This document shows, in pieces, positions 1 through 28,699 of a stretch of DNA of 28,699 nucleotides. The stretch is from a virus, in the IMG/VR virus record IMGVR_UViG_3300034103_001973, positions 1 to 28,699 of that record. The stretch is one strand, 5' to 3'. Made by a program: the position numbers and the translations under genes. The notes under the pieces were generated by a model, which was not told where the DNA came from, searched no databases, and saw nothing but the letters and a program-made list of their open reading frames with translations. Numbering within the stretch: the stretch's first letter is position 1; the number at the start of each line of letters is the position of its first letter.

Positions 1-127
1 GTTGTGGGGGAGGGTCAGGCAGCGAGGACGCGGCGGTGGCAGCGGCGGAGGCAGCTATCGACCTCGCGGCGGGCGCGCACGATAACAACGACGTCGAGCT
101 CGTCGGGCTCGTCGAGAGGAATGCCGC
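1..127. repeat. Direct terminal repeat, left copy (contig overlap)
   Basis: These 127 bases are identical to 28573-28699. The repeat lies inside a small minus-strand gene (15-236), so it does not look like a dedicated packaging end. An exact overlap of 127 is what a de Bruijn assembler run with k=127 leaves on a circular or circularly permuted molecule. I read it as proof of closure rather than as a biological terminal repeat. Confidence 0.95.
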
Positions 128-3307: not shown

Positions 3308-3564
3308 GAGTCACCCCGCGGCGCTTCCCCGTGAATCATGTGGTAGAGGTCGGCGGCGGCAACGTCGAGGTCAGCGCGGTTCATGAGAGCGAAAAGCCTC
3401 CTTCCGTCGACGATGACCTCGAGCCACCATCGCCCGCGCTCGTTGACGACTGAGCGGGCGGTCAGGATGCTGGGTCGACGTTTTGCGCGGAGCTCATGGG
3501 CATTCAGGCCGACGACAAGGGCATCGGGAAGCACTCCACCACCGAAGGTGAGCTGCTCAGACAT
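3304..3564 (-). CDS. Small unknown protein, 86 aa
   Basis: Not recognised. The chosen start (MSEQLTF, 3564) overlaps the end of the upstream gene by eight bases. The centre looks like a compact strand-rich domain (SVVNERGRWWLEVIVDGRRLFALM), followed by a helical end (NRADLDVAAADLYHMIHG). It sits between the recombination pair and the primase in an uninterrupted coupled series, so a DNA-metabolism or regulatory role is likely but unproven. Confidence 0.6.
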   Translation of the reverse strand: MSEQLTFGGGVLPDALVVGLNAHELRAKRRPSILTARSVVNERGRWWLEVIVDGRRLFALMNRADLDVAAADLYHMIHGEAPRGDS

Positions 3565-4195
3565 CGCCCACCTCTTTCGTGCGGCTGGCGACAACGGCGG
3601 CAACGTGCGCGGCGGCGTCGGGGATGACGGATGAGATGCGCGCCACCATGTCCGCGTGTTTGGCCACGGCGGCGTCGACGTCCTCGGCGTTTGCGATGGC
3701 GGCGAGGATGACATCCAGCGTTGCCCTCGCCTTCGCCTGCTTCTCTTCTGCCGTCGCCTCCTTCTTCGCCTTCACCGGGGCGGCGGCGATGACGAGCGGC
3801 TGCACCACATAGGGCTTCCGCGATGCCTTCGATGCGGTGAGCGAGAGCGTCACGGGGCGCACGAGCTCGCTCATGTGGCTGATGCGGATTCCGCCGACGG
3901 CGGCCCCGCCGAACACGACGCTTTCGTCGCGGAAGAGCGTCATCGAGCGGCCGACGTAGGCGCCACCGTCGCGGCCCCAGACGTGGACGAGGACGCGGCG
4001 CATGGACTTGCAGGGGAGGTAGGGCTTCCCGTTGTCGCCCTCGAAGTGGATGGCGACGGGCTGGTCGCCCTGCCCCGTCGACGCGCGCGCCTTGACGGCG
4101 GTGACGACGACGGTGCGAGGGCCGACGATGAGGTCGTCGGCGTTGATCTGGTCTGATTTGGGGGCGATGGTTGCGCCGAGGTCTACGGTGGTCAT
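3557..4195 (-). CDS. Conserved recombination-module protein, 212 aa; candidate ssDNA annealing/binding protein
   Basis: It lies directly downstream of the YqaJ-type exonuclease, where single-strand annealing partners normally sit. Residues 1-115 form a beta-rich domain with DDLIVGPRTVVVTAVKAR, PVAIHFEGDNGKPYLPCKSM, VWGRDGGAYVGRSMTLFRD and GGIRISHMSEL. I recall this block arrangement from uncharacterised proteins next to phage exonucleases. The C-terminal part is a Lys/Ala-rich helical tail (about residues 137-212) starting with KAKKEATAEEKQAK. It lacks motifs I would assign to RecT, Erf or Rad52-type proteins. A single-strand binding or annealing role is inferred from position. The start at 4195 has GGAGAACGAACC upstream. 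Confidence 0.6.
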   Translation of the reverse strand: MTTVDLGATIAPKSDQINADDLIVGPRTVVVTAVKARASTGQGDQPVAIHFEGDNGKPYLPCKSMRRVLVHVWGRDGGAYVGRSMTLFRDESVVFGGAAVGGIRISHMSELVRPVTLSLTASKASRKPYVVQPLVIAAAPVKAKKEATAEEKQAKARATLDVILAAIANAEDVDAAVAKHADMVARISSVIPDAAAHVAAVVASRTKEVGDV

Positions 4196-4200
4196 GGTTC

Positions 4201-4246
4201 GTTCTCCTGGTCGTGGTGGTCGTGGTGGTCGTGGTTGTCGTGGTGG
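4201..4246. repeat. Imperfect GTGGTCGTG tandem repeat
   Basis: Between exonuclease and partner gene lies a short simple repeat built on GTGGTC/GTCGTGGT, about five copies on the plus strand. On the minus strand it reads as CCACGAC units directly upstream of the ribosome binding site of the gene at 4195. It could be slippage-prone and could tune translation of that gene. No function is demonstrated. Confidence 0.6.
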
Positions 4247-4930
4247 TCAGAACACGATGGTGTCGTCGCGGCGTTCGGTGGGGATGAGTCGATAGTCGGG
4301 GTCGCTCATGCGTTCGACGATTTTCGCATACTCCTCTTCCAGTCGTTCGTGGAACTTTGCCGCGGCGGCGAGGATGGCGGCCTGTACCTCCTCGTCGGGG
4401 AAAACGCGCTTCGTGAACATCGGGAGCCCGGCGGAGAAGCTCACGAAGTCGCACCACTTGCGCTCACTGACGAGGAGCCCGGTCTGCACTTGCAGCACGA
4501 AATCCTCGGGCATTTGCGCGGCGAGGATGGTGCGCACCTGCTCGCGCTGGATGCGAGATTTGACCTCGACGAATCCGTTGTCGCCGACGAGCAAGTCGGG
4601 CGAGAAACCGAGCATGAATCCCCATTTGTCGTTCGTAACGAACCCGACGCGGTGTCCGGCCTCGTAGGCGTCTTCGTATATGCTCAAGGCCTCCTCTTCG
4701 TCGGCCTGACCGCGCAGCATATGCTCCCCGACGTAGGTCGGCTCTACGAACTGCGTCACCCGCTGCGCGAGCAGCTCATACAGGTGTGCGCGGGACTTGT
4801 CGTTGTCGGCGGCCTTGAGCTTCGCCGGGGTGACGATGCGATGCATCTCGCTCGCCGTCAGCAGCCCACAACGAGCCTGCAGCCACTCGGGCGAGCCCTG
4901 AATCAATTCCTTGTAAATGGTCAGGGTCAT
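4247..4930 (-). CDS. YqaJ-type viral recombinase / 5'-3' exonuclease, 227 aa
   Basis: Lambda-exonuclease-like nuclease that resects double-stranded ends to give single-stranded DNA for annealing recombination. Family signatures in order: QGSPEWLQARCGLLTASE (11-28, the substrate-binding start), an acidic helix around EEEAL (78-82), the catalytic core GFSPDLLVGDNGFVEVKS (109-bridge with D112, E122 and K124), then QVQTGLLVSE (147-156). The length of 227 aa is usual for the family. The start overlaps the upstream stop as ATGA, so it is translationally coupled to the 95-aa gene. The partner protein follows downstream. Confidence 0.92.
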   Translation of the reverse strand: MTLTIYKELIQGSPEWLQARCGLLTASEMHRIVTPAKLKAADNDKSRAHLYELLAQRVTQFVEPTYVGEHMLRGQADEEEALSIYEDAYEAGHRVGFVTNDKWGFMLGFSPDLLVGDNGFVEVKSRIQREQVRTILAAQMPEDFVLQVQTGLLVSERKWCDFVSFSAGLPMFTKRVFPDEEVQAAILAAAAKFHERLEEEYAKIVERMSDPDYRLIPTERRDDTIVF

Positions 4931-11585: not shown

Positions 11586-12920
11586 TCAGAGACCGGTGAG
11601 GCCCGTCATCACGCCGATAGCGCCACGCTTGGCGCAGTACAGCTGATAGGACCCGGTGAAGTCAGCATCCATCGACAGGGTCGCGCGGTTCGTCACGACG
11701 ACACCACCCAGCTCGGTGAGCTCCTCGGGCGCCATCTCGGCCCAGACACCCAGCTTCGCGTGGTCCCTGTTGTGGAACACCACGATGGTCTGCGGGCAGT
11801 TGGGGTCGATGAGCACCGGGCGACCGGCGAGGTCGAGACCCGAGCTGCGCACGTCGCCGTACTTGTCCGCGCGCGCGCCGAGGGGCTGCGGGCGCTGAGC
11901 CGTCGGCTGGATTGTCATGCCGAAGACGGCGCCCATGGCACCAGCCTGGATGCGGTGAGCGGCGGCGACCTGCGGGCTCATCAGTGCATCGGTGAACTGC
12001 TCACCGGAGTACTGCGTGATTCGCGCATCGAACTGAAGCGCCGCTTCGTGCGAGTAGGCCGCGCCCAGGGCGATGGTCTGACCGACCCAGCCCGGGAGCG
12101 AGGCGGGGGCGATGCCGCCGAACGACGACGACGCGCCGCTTCCGGCGATGTCGTCGAAGGAGTTCAGGCGCTTGCCCGCGATGGGCGTCGCGTTGCCACC
12201 GAAGCCCGGGAACGTACCGCGCAGGGCGAAGATGTCGGCGACGTCGACGGCGGTGACACCGAGAGCGGTGACAGAGCCGGTGGCCGGGTTCACGACGTCG
12301 TTGATGAACGTCACGTTACCCGCGACGTTCGCCGAGTTGGCGCCGATGACGGCGGCGACCTTGTTCAAACACCGGACGGTGTAGGAGAGGGCCGCCGAGG
12401 TGTCGACGAAGTTGTACGACGCGCCGGGGATGAACAGGCTCACGTCGAGGAACGGGATCGTGACCGTCGAATCCGCGGCGGTGCCCGACCAGGTGGCGGC
12501 GGCCTGCGGGACCACCTGACCGGCATACAGACCGCGGCCGATGTGGCGCGCGACTGACTTCGCCGAGGTGTCGAGCTTGGCGTCGAGCATCTTCGTGAGC
12601 TCTTTGTCGGCGAGCTTGGCCAAGGCTGCCTGCTTGCCCAGGCTCACGCGCGTGGTGACCATGGTGGGCACGAACCGCGCCTTCACGGGGGTCGTGGTCT
12701 GGCCGTTGGGCCGGGTGTCGAAGTCGAGGGCGTAGGTGGTCGCGGGCGACTCACCGACGTCGGCGGTGACGACGAGCTCCTCGCCGTCCTGCTCGACCTT
12801 CTCAAGGACGCCGCTTCCCACGAGGGGAGACATGTTGTTGATGGTGGTGACGAAGCGCTCAGGGCCGAACTCGGCGATGATGCCGCTGATGCTGTTGATT
12901 GTGACGTTTGGGAGAGCCAT
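11586..12920 (-). CDS. Major capsid protein, 444 aa
   Basis: Forms the icosahedral head shell. It follows the scaffold gene by 34 bases, as in most podoviruses. The N-terminus (MALPNVTINSISGIIAEFG, then a helix and basic strand) and the central MLDAKLDTSAKSVARHIGRG region have the look of an HK97-fold capsid of the P22-like type. An inserted Gly/Ala-rich stretch (about residues 150-260) would be the surface domain. The C-terminus ends with a strand-rich region (QLYCAKRGAIGVMTGL). The start is preceded by GAGGTTCGAAG. Length and neighbours support the call; no single motif is diagnostic. Confidence 0.85.
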   Translation of the reverse strand: MALPNVTINSISGIIAEFGPERFVTTINNMSPLVGSGVLEKVEQDGEELVVTADVGESPATTYALDFDTRPNGQTTTPVKARFVPTMVTTRVSLGKQAALAKLADKELTKMLDAKLDTSAKSVARHIGRGLYAGQVVPQAAATWSGTAADSTVTIPFLDVSLFIPGASYNFVDTSAALSYTVRCLNKVAAVIGANSANVAGNVTFINDVVNPATGSVTALGVTAVDVADIFALRGTFPGFGGNATPIAGKRLNSFDDIAGSGASSSFGGIAPASLPGWVGQTIALGAAYSHEAALQFDARITQYSGEQFTDALMSPQVAAAHRIQAGAMGAVFGMTIQPTAQRPQPLGARADKYGDVRSSGLDLAGRPVLIDPNCPQTIVVFHNRDHAKLGVWAEMAPEELTELGGVVVTNRATLSMDADFTGSYQLYCAKRGAIGVMTGLTGL

Positions 12921-12954
12921 TGTCTTCGAACCTCAGTGAGTTGGTGTTTCGTCG

Positions 12955-13857
12955 TCAGGACTGACGACGAGCGTCAAGGAAATCGAGCATCCCCTTGGCG
13001 TTGTTTGCGAACCGGCCGGTTGCGCCGGCCCCGCCCGGAGCCCGTGCCCCAACGGGGACGTTGGCGACGGCAGGGGCTGATTGACGAGGGGCGTAGCCAA
13101 GAGCCTCGAGGCGCTTGACCTCCCTCTCGTGAATCATTCGCGCGGCCTCGCTGGCGCTGAGGTCATGCCGCGACTTCATGGCGGCGATGACGTCGGCGCG
13201 GTTGGCGAGGCGGTGCGTGGCCAGCGCGCTCTCGATTTGCGTCGAGAGCCGCGCCTTGATTTGCTCGCGCTCGGCCTCGAGCACGAAATTCCGCTGCATC
13301 TCGCGCAGCTTCGCTTCGTGCTCGAGGGCCAGCGCGTCGGCGCGCTCTTTGGCTCGCTGTGACAGCCTGACGTCAGCAAGCTCCTCGTCACGGGGGTCGT
13401 ACTGCACACCCTCGCGCAGCTGCTGTCGGAGGCGGTCATTCTCCTCCTGCAGGAGCTGCGCAGCTGTGCTGTAGCGCTGATTCTCGTGAGCGAGACGAGC
13501 CGCTTCTTCTCGTGCTGATTTCACGTTGTCGCTTAGTTTGCCGATGCGCGCCTTGAAGGCCGCCATGGGGACCACGTCGGCCTGCTTGCGCTCGTCTGGT
13601 GCGTCGACGGCGTCGGGGCTGTCGGTCGCATCCTTGCCCGGTGACGAGCCCGGTGAGTCACCCAGTGAGTCAGGCTGCCCGGCGGGTGAGCTCGGGGCCT
13701 GGGGATCTGCAGCGGCTGCAGCTGCGCGCTTGGCGGCGATGATGGCCATCATGCGCGACTGTGTGGATGCCGGGGCCTGAGGGGCTCCGGGGTCGGTGGG
13801 CGAGGCCGAGGGGGCGCCCGAGTCAGCCGATGGTGCGGCAGTGGTGGTGGTGGTCAT
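12955..13857 (-). CDS. Capsid scaffold protein, 300 aa
   Basis: Internal scaffold that guides capsid assembly and is then released or cleaved. Residues 1-90 are low-complexity Ala/Ser/Pro/Thr. Residues 95-225 are a long coiled coil (SAREEAARLAHENQRYSTAA, then EENDRLRQQLREG). The last 25 residues form a basic helix-like tail (FANNAKGMLDFLDARRQS) such as contacts capsid subunits. It lies directly upstream of the major capsid gene, as usual. The ATG at 13857 lacks a clear ribosome binding site, and the divergent promoter region begins immediately upstream. Confidence 0.8.
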   Translation of the reverse strand: MTTTTTAAPSADSGAPSASPTDPGAPQAPASTQSRMMAIIAAKRAAAAAADPQAPSSPAGQPDSLGDSPGSSPGKDATDSPDAVDAPDERKQADVVPMAAFKARIGKLSDNVKSAREEAARLAHENQRYSTAAQLLQEENDRLRQQLREGVQYDPRDEELADVRLSQRAKERADALALEHEAKLREMQRNFVLEAEREQIKARLSTQIESALATHRLANRADVIAAMKSRHDLSASEAARMIHEREVKRLEALGYAPRQSAPAVANVPVGARAPGGAGATGRFANNAKGMLDFLDARRQS

Positions 13858-22775: not shown

Positions 22776-23231
22776 ATGAAGAGCGTCATCGACATCGCCC
22801 GAACACAGCTCGGTGTGAGCGAGAAGACCGGCAAGAACGACGGGATTCCCGCCCAGCGCTACATGAGGGGCGACGCCCTCGCATGGTGCGCCGGGTTCGT
22901 GCTCTGGTGTATCCACCAGTCTGACAGCCGTTGGCGCCATGCCTTCGAAGCGCAGCACTACAAGTGCCGCAGGGTGTCTGGGTTCGTTGACGTCGCCCGA
23001 GAGAACGGGGTGCTTCGACTCCGCGAGGGCTACAACCCGCAGCCTGGTGATGTCATCTTCTTCACGAACGCAACGAGCGACGTCGGTATCGCCGGGAACC
23101 ATTGCGGTGTCGTCGAGGAAGTCGTCGAGGGTCGCGTTCGCACCATCGAGGGAAACACGTCGAACAAAGTGGCTCGCCGTGATTACGCTGTCGACGACAA
23201 GCGCATCCTCGGGTATGCGAGTCTTTCATGA
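22776..23231 (+). CDS. Endolysin, CHAP-type peptidoglycan amidase/peptidase, 151 aa
   Basis: Cell-wall hydrolase for host lysis. The start at 22776 has GGTGAAGG upstream; a longer reading from 22668 overlaps the previous gene and has no domain. Catalytic signature of a CHAP/NlpC-type cysteine peptidase: AWCAGFVLWC (Cys38), PGDVIFF (90-96), NHCGVVEEVVEGRV (His109), TIEGNTS (Glu125, Asn127). The length equals a single catalytic domain with no separate wall-binding domain. No signal peptide is seen, so release needs a holin. The holin candidates lie on the other strand. Confidence 0.88.
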   Translation: MKSVIDIARTQLGVSEKTGKNDGIPAQRYMRGDALAWCAGFVLWCIHQSDSRWRHAFEAQHYKCRRVSGFVDVARENGVLRLREGYNPQPGDVIFFTNATSDVGIAGNHCGVVEEVVEGRVRTIEGNTSNKVARRDYAVDDKRILGYASLS

Positions 23232-23245
23232 ACACGAAGGAAACC

Positions 23246-23563
23246 ATGACCAAGAAACCAGACGCACCGACATCGGCAGCCGTGCCGAAGTCGCCCAGGC
23301 ATCGACACCCGGCGAACGTGCGGGGGTGGTACGCGCCCGCGAGATTTCTCCCGAACCTCTTCGTCCCGCTCGCGGTGCTGCAGCATCTTTCCGTCATCGC
23401 TGACGAGAACGGGGTCGCGTCACTCACCGAGGCGAAGGCCGAAATCAACCAGGAAATCCTCTTCGCCTACCTGCGGATGCTCACTCTGATGGGCCACATC
23501 GACGTGGACGGCGAGCGCATCCTCATCAAGTCTACCCCACCCACGAAGGACAGCAGCCAATGA
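23246..23563 (+). CDS. Small winged-helix-like protein, 105 aa
   Basis: Not recognised. The start MTKKPDAP at 23246 has GAAGGAAACC upstream. An alternative ATG at 23228 overlaps the endolysin stop (ATGA) and would add six residues. After a basic Pro-rich start, residues 28-95 (FVPLAVLQHLSVIADENGVA, SLTEAKAEINQEILFAYL, MLTLMGHIDVDGERILIKS) look like a winged-helix domain ending in a two-strand wing. It may bind DNA or terminase parts. It lies between lysis and packaging genes. Confidence 0.55.
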   Translation: MTKKPDAPTSAAVPKSPRHRHPANVRGWYAPARFLPNLFVPLAVLQHLSVIADENGVASLTEAKAEINQEILFAYLRMLTLMGHIDVDGERILIKSTPPTKDSSQ

Positions 23564-24042
23564 CCGACATCGCCCAGAAGTTCACCATCGTCGACAAGCG
23601 GATTGCCGATGATGCTTCCATCGCCGAACCCGTCATGGACGGCGTCACCCCGAAGGCCGAGGACGGGACGGTCAGCCTGCACGAGCTCTACTCCGGGGGG
23701 CTTCCCGTCGGCGCCTTCGCCGATGTCGCGCCGAACACAGCGCTCCTGCTCCCCCTGCGTCGCCCTGCCCGGTCGTCCGGCGGCATCGTCACTGCCGTCG
23801 ACGAGGTGAAGGGCACCCTCGGGACGGCCTGCATCGCCTACGTCGTCGCTGGGGTCGGGACCATCCAGCCCGCGGCCGACCAACACCCGGCGACGTGGAC
23901 GGCCGTCGAGCCCGGGGACGTGGTCGTTGTGCGTAACGCGATGCTCGAGCCCCTGCATCCCGACCTCGAGCCGCTGTCGATTCACCGGCGGCACATCCTC
24001 GCCGTGATTCGCCTGCGCGACGAGCTGGTCAGCGGGGGGTGA
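23560..24042 (+). CDS. GroES-like co-chaperonin candidate, 160 aa
   Basis: The protein resembles bacterial GroES in order and spacing: NTALLLPLRRPARSSGGIV (near 59-77, the beta-strand and mobile-loop region), EVKGTLGTACIAYVVAGVG (82-100, dome side), VEPGDVVVVRN (116-126), then a C-terminal HILAVIRL (145-152), which matches the GroES ending DILAIV. An N-terminal extension of about 55 residues is extra. Phage T4 Gp31 is a known co-chaperonin that replaces GroES to fold the capsid protein. It starts ATGA-coupled to the upstream gene and ends one base before the terminase small-subunit candidate. Confidence 0.6.
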   Translation: MTDIAQKFTIVDKRIADDASIAEPVMDGVTPKAEDGTVSLHELYSGGLPVGAFADVAPNTALLLPLRRPARSSGGIVTAVDEVKGTLGTACIAYVVAGVGTIQPAADQHPATWTAVEPGDVVVVRNAMLEPLHPDLEPLSIHRRHILAVIRLRDELVSGG

Positions 24043-24043
24043 G

Positions 24044-24439
24044 ATGACGACGTCGAAACGGCGGGACATCTTCGACACCGGGGCACCCTCGAGGGCGCCA
24101 GTCGACAAGAGCGCGGCGGACATCCCCGCCGATGCTTGGGTCCCGCGCGTTCCCGTCGTCGATGGGGTCGCACTGACGTTCGACGAAGCCGCTGACGAAA
24201 TCCAGCGGGTGACGTCGGTCAATGCGGCCCGCTACATCCACGAGCTCGAGATGCTCGCCGTCGCGTGGCGCGCCGATGTGACGCTCTCGGGAACGTCGGC
24301 GAAAGCGGCGATGCACCTGCTCAGCCTCGCTGCAGGCGCGCCCGAGAAGCGCAACAAACCCGCGCCGAAGGTGTCCAGGCGCGTCGATGAGCTGCGGGCC
24401 TTGCTGACGGGCGAGGACGAGGGCGAGGGCGAGGCGTGA
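24044..24439 (+). CDS. Terminase small subunit candidate, 131 aa
   Basis: Placed directly upstream of and overlapping the large terminase (GTGA), where the DNA-recognition subunit usually lies. It is helical after a short disordered start (TFDEAADEIQRVTSVNAARY, IHELEMLAVAWRADVTLSG, KAAMHLLSLAAGAPEK), with a basic then acidic C-terminus. I do not see a standard HTH of the family, so the call rests mainly on position. Confidence 0.5.
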   Translation: MTTSKRRDIFDTGAPSRAPVDKSAADIPADAWVPRVPVVDGVALTFDEAADEIQRVTSVNAARYIHELEMLAVAWRADVTLSGTSAKAAMHLLSLAAGAPEKRNKPAPKVSRRVDELRALLTGEDEGEGEA

Positions 24440-25968
24440 AGCGGCCCATCCTCGACCGGGCCCGGCGATTGTCGGGCCTGCTGATGATTCTGAATCAGGA
24501 GCAGCAGGGGGCCATCTCTCGCTGGCGCATCACCGACGCCCAGCTCGAGGTGCTCGAGGCCATCCTCGAGCACGAGCGCACCATCGTGCTGAAGGGCCGG
24601 CAGATGGGCGTGTCGACGGTGAGCCTGCTCGCCGTCCTCGTCTTTGCCATCGCGAACCCGGGCGTACCCTGCGCAATCGTCGCCGACACCCGGGACAAGG
24701 CCCAGGGGCTGCTTGCTCGCCTCGCCGGATGGTGCGACCAGCTGGGCATCGAGGTCGGGGCGCGCAACAAAGGCAGCGTCGAGCTCGCGAACGCGGGCGC
24801 CGATGGGGTCTGTACCGTCATCGATGCGCTCTCGGCCGTCTCTCGCGCCGAGGGTGGCGAGTCGCGCGTCGGTCGCTCGAAGAGCTACGGGTTCATCCAC
24901 GCCAGCGAGCTCGCCTTCTGGCTTTCGGATTCTGCGGTGTTTCGCGGGCTGACGTCGACGGCGTTGCCCGGGGCCCGCATCGTCATCGAGAGCACGGCCA
25001 GCGCGGCCGACAACCTCTTTCGCACCCTGTGGCACGGGGAGGACGAGGGCAGCGCCGACGAATGGCATCGGGTCTTTCTGCCCATTGAGCGACACCCGGT
25101 CTACCAGCGCCATCCAGCCAGCATCGACGAGGACACCTGGTTGACGCTATCGGGGACTCGGTACGGGTTCACCTCGAGGGCGACGGCGGCCTGGTGGTGG
25201 CATCGGATGCGGGTCGACTTTGCTGGCGACGAGGATGGGGCCATGCGGGAGTTTCCCCAGCTCCCCGAGCACTGCTTCAGCTTCGCCCGCGGGAGATGGA
25301 TTCTCCGCTTCACCGACGCCGTCGTCGTCGCCGATGGCAAGTGGGACGGGAAAGCGAAGCGCTTCGACGGATGGCATCGATACCGCGACCGGATGCCTGA
25401 TGAGCCCGTCGTTTTCGGCGTCGACGTCGCGGCCGGTGGCGGCGGGGACTCGTCGGCCGTCGTCGTGTTGTCGCTGCTGACGGGTACCATCCTCGCGACG
25501 TGGGTGAGCAACAGCACGTCGCTGCCTGACTTGGTCGAGCTCGTCAAGGAAACGGCCGAGCGCTTCGTCCCCCAGACCATCGTTGTCGAGAGCAACGGGG
25601 TCGGCGTCGGCGTCTATGAGACGCTGAAGCAGTTCTCGCGATGGCACGTCACCGAGCAACGCTCGGGCGAGGAGAAGCACTTTCGGCTGCAGCGGCTGAA
25701 GCTCGCCATCGAGCAGGGCGTCGTCCCCATCGGGCCCGAGCTCGTCGCCGAGGTGAAGTCGTCGAACATCCAGCCACCGACGGGGCCGAAGGGTCGACCG
25801 TCCTACGAAGGCCTCGACGACTGCCTCAACGCGCTATCTTTCGCGCGCGAGTTCTACCTCGACGCGCTGCCGTCGACCGTCGCCGTCAACGTCGTCGAGA
25901 ACATCGACCACTCGGTGACGTTCCACAGCTCGAAGGCGCTTCGGCGGAACATGCGCGAGCGATACTGA
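24436..25968 (+). CDS. Terminase large subunit, 510 aa
   Basis: Packaging motor and nuclease that cuts concatemers and pumps DNA into the head. GTG start, overlapping the upstream stop by four bases. ATPase: Walker A-like KGRQMGVST (53-61), Walker B-like YGFIHASEL (151-159, Glu158), coupling motif IESTA (184-188). Nuclease (RNase H-like): VFGVDVAAGGGGDSS (Asp330), TIVVESNGVG (Glu385), EGLDDCLNALSFA (Asp461/Asp462). The length is typical. It is the last plus-strand gene; a minus-strand terminator follows at 25973-26011. Confidence 0.93.
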   Translation: MKRPILDRARRLSGLLMILNQEQQGAISRWRITDAQLEVLEAILEHERTIVLKGRQMGVSTVSLLAVLVFAIANPGVPCAIVADTRDKAQGLLARLAGWCDQLGIEVGARNKGSVELANAGADGVCTVIDALSAVSRAEGGESRVGRSKSYGFIHASELAFWLSDSAVFRGLTSTALPGARIVIESTASAADNLFRTLWHGEDEGSADEWHRVFLPIERHPVYQRHPASIDEDTWLTLSGTRYGFTSRATAAWWWHRMRVDFAGDEDGAMREFPQLPEHCFSFARGRWILRFTDAVVVADGKWDGKAKRFDGWHRYRDRMPDEPVVFGVDVAAGGGGDSSAVVVLSLLTGTILATWVSNSTSLPDLVELVKETAERFVPQTIVVESNGVGVGVYETLKQFSRWHVTEQRSGEEKHFRLQRLKLAIEQGVVPIGPELVAEVKSSNIQPPTGPKGRPSYEGLDDCLNALSFAREFYLDALPSTVAVNVVENIDHSVTFHSSKALRRNMRERY

Positions 25969-28572: not shown

Positions 28573-28699
28573 GTTGTGGGGGAGGGTCAGGCAGCGAGGA
28601 CGCGGCGGTGGCAGCGGCGGAGGCAGCTATCGACCTCGCGGCGGGCGCGCACGATAACAACGACGTCGAGCTCGTCGGGCTCGTCGAGAGGAATGCCGC
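28573..28699. repeat. Direct terminal repeat, right copy (contig overlap)
   Basis: Identical to positions 1-127, base for base. It holds the 3' part of the gene at 15-236 read a second time. Removing it gives a 28,572-bp circular sequence. Confidence 0.95.
28587..28699 (-). CDS. Second, partial copy of the 73-aa early gene (cut by contig end)
   Basis: The same reading as 15-127: the C-terminal part ending VDSCLRRCHRRVLAA, with the stop at 28587. It is an artefact of the overlap rather than a second gene. It shows how the gene joins the downstream gene at 28519 in the circular genome. Confidence 0.85.
   Translation of the reverse strand, partial: GIPLDEPDELDVVVIVRARREVDSCLRRCHRRVLAA

Follow-up and report, generated by a model that had tools for sequence, protein, structure and literature searches.

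Genome and gene neighbourhood

The window analysed here comprises positions 1 to 28,699 of IMG/VR record IMGVR_UViG_3300034103_001973 (28,699 nucleotides). Its two ends form an exact 127-bp direct repeat (window 1-127 and 28573-28699) and therefore the window is very probably a complete genome unit of 28,572 bp (~28.57 kb), either terminally redundant or circularly assembled. This agrees with a sequence-only reading made earlier on the same DNA, which had described a 28.6-kb, podovirus-like genome; the latter term fits as well, the portal being of P22 type.

The ORF that is the subject of this study (23560-24042, + strand) sits in a block of lysis and packaging genes, all on the + strand. Upstream lie a CHAP-type endolysin (22776-23231; Pfam PF05257, E 8.7e-11; PHROG endolysin) and a 111-aa protein of unknown function (23228-23563) with no family match. 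Downstream, a 131-aa ORF (24044-24439) without a family match occupies, by position only, the place of a small terminase, and is followed by the terminase large subunit (24436-25968; PF17289, E 4.8e-10; PHROG 2, E 2.8e-28). The ORF had previously been placed next to terminase; it is indeed near the large subunit gene but does not directly adjoin it, as the 131-aa ORF lies in between.

Elsewhere the window holds, despite its very small size, a D5-type primase/helicase with a CHC2 zinc finger and a toprim-like region (667-2994, - strand). A row of 13 Thr codons at ~4196-4260, in an overlapping minus-strand frame (ORF 3504-4457), indicates that a short simple repeat lies between two genes. The likely major head protein is found at 11586-13857 together with what may be a scaffold-like coiled protein, both on the - strand, portal and terminase being on the other. 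The best candidate for a head protein has 444 aa (11586-12920, - strand) and a weak match to PHROG 9953 (E 0.0066).

The ORF and its relatives

The ORF at 23560-24042 has an ATG start, encodes 160 aa and ends in TGA, and its start shares 4 bp with the stop of the preceding ORF. The protein contains the motifs GGIV (residues 74-77, 23779-23790), GDVVVV (residues 119-124) and HILAVI (residues 145-150). Relatives were found in 20 IMG/VR contigs, with ~78-83% identity where the gene is complete; two further contigs carry a homologue that is 48% identical (tblastn) and a third lineage is known from a C-terminal fragment only (L048). Values of dN/dS against the close relatives are 0.15-0.25. The coordinates proposed earlier are exact, and given these relatives and this dN/dS the ORF is a gene under conservation rather than a chance frame. 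At the sensitivity used, relatives were not found in isolated phages, plasmids or species-representative bacterial genomes, and no homologue was found in the more distant terminase relatives that were checked (L103-L109). A degenerate DNA motif for PLRRPxxSxGGIV occurs in 20 stretches among 2.9 million viral contigs, all of them on contigs already recognised as carrying the family.

Across the 11 aligned family members the residues G74, G75, I76 and V77 are invariant (11/11) and the loop is kept as SxGGIV. The strongest conservation lies outside this loop, in the C-terminal segment. A divergent member resides on contig IMGVR_UViG_3300042301_003373 (L047:1-2946), where it keeps its upstream neighbour, an ORF similar to the 111-aa protein (L047:632-937) that adjoins the homologue, but is convergent to the terminase gene. 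An M15-type peptidase-like ORF, recognised by eye only, lies beside terminase on the minus strand (L047:1917-2405) with a RusA-like ORF upstream of it. On account of the convergent orientation and of these two ORFs nearby, we regard the L047 block as rearranged.

Similarity to the Cpn10 family

The earlier reading had proposed a GroES-like protein on the basis of its motifs. Neither the window protein nor any other single family sequence matches Cpn10 in Pfam (PF00166) or NCBIfam, and a PDB sequence search with a single sequence returned nothing meaningful. Hmmscan of the proteins gave weak matches of 6 of the 11 members to PHROG 3188, 'co-chaperonin GroES' (best E 0.036), the only family matched by more than one member; the two matches inspected are both in register. 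A search with PHROG 3188 over the whole records listed nothing.

We therefore compare profiles here, the Cpn10 profile consisting of 80 bacterial and phage sequences that include E. coli GroES, with gp31 left out. The E. coli GroES sequence used is confirmed by its 94-98% matches in enterobacterial genomes. HHalign places residues 61-150 of the family on GroES 10-95, co-linearly and over 83 columns, with a score of 26-28 and P of 4-6e-4; none of 400 column shuffles was as good (0/400). As a control, the other genes of the genome were compared with the same profile and the CHAP endolysin scored 25.9, over only 30 columns around its GDVIFF motif. The raw score is thus insufficient alone, and the protein was therefore tested half by half. 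Residues 53-114 find their match in GroES 10-39 and residues 115-160 in GroES 58-95, the halves being in the correct order and in register, and for each of them 0/150 column shuffles did as well. The first of these matches persists when the GDVVVV segment is masked. No match to the Cpn10 profile was obtained by hhalign for the roof-hairpin region or for the N-terminal extension. Moreover, the divergent member L047 alone aligns to E. coli GroES with Z 7.1, and when a Cpn10 HMM was run over the 2,534 ORFs of the fetched loci the family ranked first after the true Cpn10s, with E 0.056 or worse. The argument rests on profiles and on this divergent member; when the window protein is aligned with one Cpn10 at a time, the result is unconvincing. 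Its best pairwise alignment, to gp31, was out of register and was discarded as spurious.

On this basis the protein can be divided into an N-terminal extension (residues 1-52, 23560-23715), which stands at null level in hhalign and carries conserved FTxxD and ELY motifs in the family alignment, and a Cpn10-like domain of approximately residues 53-153 (23716-24018). The equivalent of the GroES mobile loop, by alignment with Cpn10 rows and by hhalign of the N-terminal half, is residues 67-83 (RRPARSSGGIVTAVDEV, 23758-23808). The C-terminal half of the domain, GDVVVVRN...MLEPLHPDLEPLSIHRRHILAVI (23914-24009), is the part best kept in the divergent homologue, as seen in both the family alignment and hhalign.

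The resemblance to GroES thus goes beyond chance: the co-linear profile match, both halves in register, the PHROG 3188 matches and the invariant GGIV uphold it. We consider Cpn10 homology likely from these comparisons, and since the Cpn10 models of Pfam and NCBIfam do not fire we describe the family as a putative remote homologue. It is improbable that the protein is instead an unrelated small beta-rich phage protein in which GGIV and GDVVVV arose by chance or convergence. The silence of Pfam and NCBIfam would suit such a protein, as would the fact that GDV[IV]-type motifs also turn up in proteins that are not related, among them the CHAP endolysin next door. Against it stand the two halves, each matching on its own and in the right order, the 83 columns aligned over the entire domain, and a PHROG match that came unprompted.

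Predicted structure

AlphaFold run on family members alone gave no usable model (pLDDT 35), which is a further point on the side of a protein unrelated to Cpn10. With 19 bacterial Cpn10 rows added to the alignment, a 115-residue core was modelled with pLDDT 71 and pTM 0.66. The closest PDB matches of this second model are Cpn10 chains (Foldseek E 6e-4; VIA Z 7.8, rmsd 4.5 over 90 residues) and its similarity to T4 gp31 (1g31) has Z 6.0, where, by the tool's own warning, a Z below 8 may reflect a common arrangement. Among viral models the best matches are likewise largely co-chaperonins. Because Cpn10 rows stood in the alignment, this is a threading-type result that resembles Cpn10 moderately and is not independent support for homology. 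In the superposition on GroES and Gp31 suggested earlier, the model is Cpn10-like when Cpn10 rows are supplied, and the family by itself gives no usable model.

The GroEL-contact loop and proposed function

In E. coli GroES the residues that contact GroEL are Ile-Val-Leu (PMC3514286), and an L27A GroES is unable to interact with GroEL (as cited in PMC3514286). Position 27 is Leu or Ile in every one of the 80 Cpn10 sequences in the comparison (80/80), those of phages among them. The mobile loop of the family retains GG and the two hydrophobic residues equivalent to I25 and V26 in 11/11 members, but the hydrophobic third residue of the tripeptide is absent throughout (0/11), the equivalent of Leu27 being Thr in 10 members and Glu in the remaining one. 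In the window protein GGIV is followed by Thr78 (23779-23793), such that Ile-Val-Leu has become Ile-Val-Thr. Judged from the residues, either the changed loop fits the GroEL of the host or the protein has ceased to work with GroEL. A hydrophobic residue at the L27 position is one of the defining features of functional co-chaperonins that were tested, and as it is absent we file the protein as a Cpn10 homologue and not as an established co-chaperonin. Of the 'GroES-like co-chaperonin' proposed earlier, the homology is supported, whereas the function does not follow, in view of the Thr or Glu at this position and of the 52-aa extension. Classical co-chaperonin activity is nonetheless plausible.

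We lean towards a diverged phage Cpn10 that still works as a co-chaperonin with an altered GroEL contact. A phage-encoded Cpn60 (GroEL) was looked for in the genome and not found, and therefore the partner would be the GroEL of the host. Under this hypothesis, the lysis and packaging block would encode a highly diverged phage Cpn10 with a GroES fold whose ring caps host GroEL via the SxGGIV loop; the capped GroEL would then assist the folding of a protein of the phage, much as with T4 gp31. With Thr or Glu in place of Leu27, the contact itself could not be of the classical kind, and the N-terminal extension probably serves as an arm for docking or stabilisation that is specific to the phage. 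We infer the barrel fold, the ring assembly, the binding to GroEL, late expression and any client alike. As for the client, the earlier suggestion that the capsid or a tail protein can fold only in a special chamber is speculative. The 444-aa head-protein candidate is not oversized for an ordinary GroEL-GroES cage and so lends no support to a capsid protein too big for it.

That all 11 members lack a hydrophobic residue at the third contact position may also be read in another way, as the mark of a Cpn10-derived barrel ring which has ceased to serve GroEL and been put to a new use, for instance in assembly or as a part of the virion (head, neck, tail or packaging accessory), the extension being its anchor. 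The conserved N-terminal extension, the placement of the gene in the lysis and packaging block, and a conservation that is strongest outside the loop, in the C-terminal segment, would all be in keeping with such a ring. Yet SxGGIV is kept, where drift would be expected of a loop that no longer binds GroEL, and no virion family was matched. None of the family members matched a PHROG of the head, connector or tail category, a result with which a virion role would still be compatible, and the searches showed no confident assignment to a head-tail or decoration family, the outcome that had been named in advance as evidence against a GroES-like protein. We regard repurposing as a tentative alternative. 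A third role would be that of an inhibitor or decoy which occupies the host chaperonin without supporting folding, given that a loop which keeps GGIV and lacks the third hydrophobic residue might still bind and yet not be fully functional; this would harm the folding of the phage's own proteins and has no positive pointer, and we consider it very improbable.

Comparison with known co-chaperonins

With bacterial GroES/Cpn10 (PF00166) the family shares a co-linear domain, the SxGGIV loop, the GD[IV]V segment and the C-terminal ILA strand. It differs in lying below Pfam detection, in its 52-aa N-terminal extension, in the Thr or Glu at the third contact residue and in a longer, unmatched roof region. 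Very low sequence identity to GroES is also a feature of T4 gp31, a phage-encoded Cpn10-fold protein that stands in for GroES in the folding of gp23 and is 14% identical to it (PMC6318259). Unlike the family, gp31 keeps the hydrophobic tripeptide and is without roof loops (PMC6318259). There is no usable direct sequence match between the two, and the genome described here is about six times smaller.

Further cases are the Shewanella and Vibrio siphoviruses 1/44 and 1.049.O and the Pseudoalteromonas phage B8b, medium-size phages with a Cpn10 gene inside the structural block (PMC4294664). The genomes of the siphoviruses are of 45-50 kb. These Cpn10s, in contrast to the family, are recognised as such by BLAST and lack a long extension, and in 1/44 and 1.049.O the IVL tripeptide is intact. 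GroES is also a core gene of the HTVC023P-type podoviruses, pelagiphages with genomes of ~58.8 kb (PMC9599517). These are podoviruses that bear GroES too, likened here by description, but with larger genomes, and so a podoviral GroES relative is already known; what is new is how small the genome is, together with the divergence of the protein, its extension and the changed tripeptide. Among the matches listed, and leaving fragmentary records aside, the smallest named phage genome with a Cpn10 is 44.7 kb, and the 28.6-kb genome is smaller than those of the complete, named GroES-bearing phages among these matches.

The locus would thus present, within a complete genome of 28.6 kb, a conserved relative of Cpn10 that standard family models overlook and in which a GroEL-contact residue is changed, suggesting that Cpn10 relatives of small phages can escape annotation. 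If the protein is simply a working co-chaperonin, a known kind is extended to a smaller genome. It is also conceivable, though less likely, that a Cpn10-fold protein of a very small podovirus-like phage has abandoned the classical GroEL contact and been rebuilt, with a new N-terminal arm, into an assembly or virion ring. The altered loop makes it possible to ask directly which of its residues are indispensable to a co-chaperonin, or how the lid of a chaperone comes to serve another purpose. Lastly, in the Shewanella and Vibrio siphoviruses the co-chaperonin gene (L054:2492-2797 and L055:2516-2791) lies between the genes for the tail-completion and major tail proteins, a position that suggests a tail client or a structural use there too.
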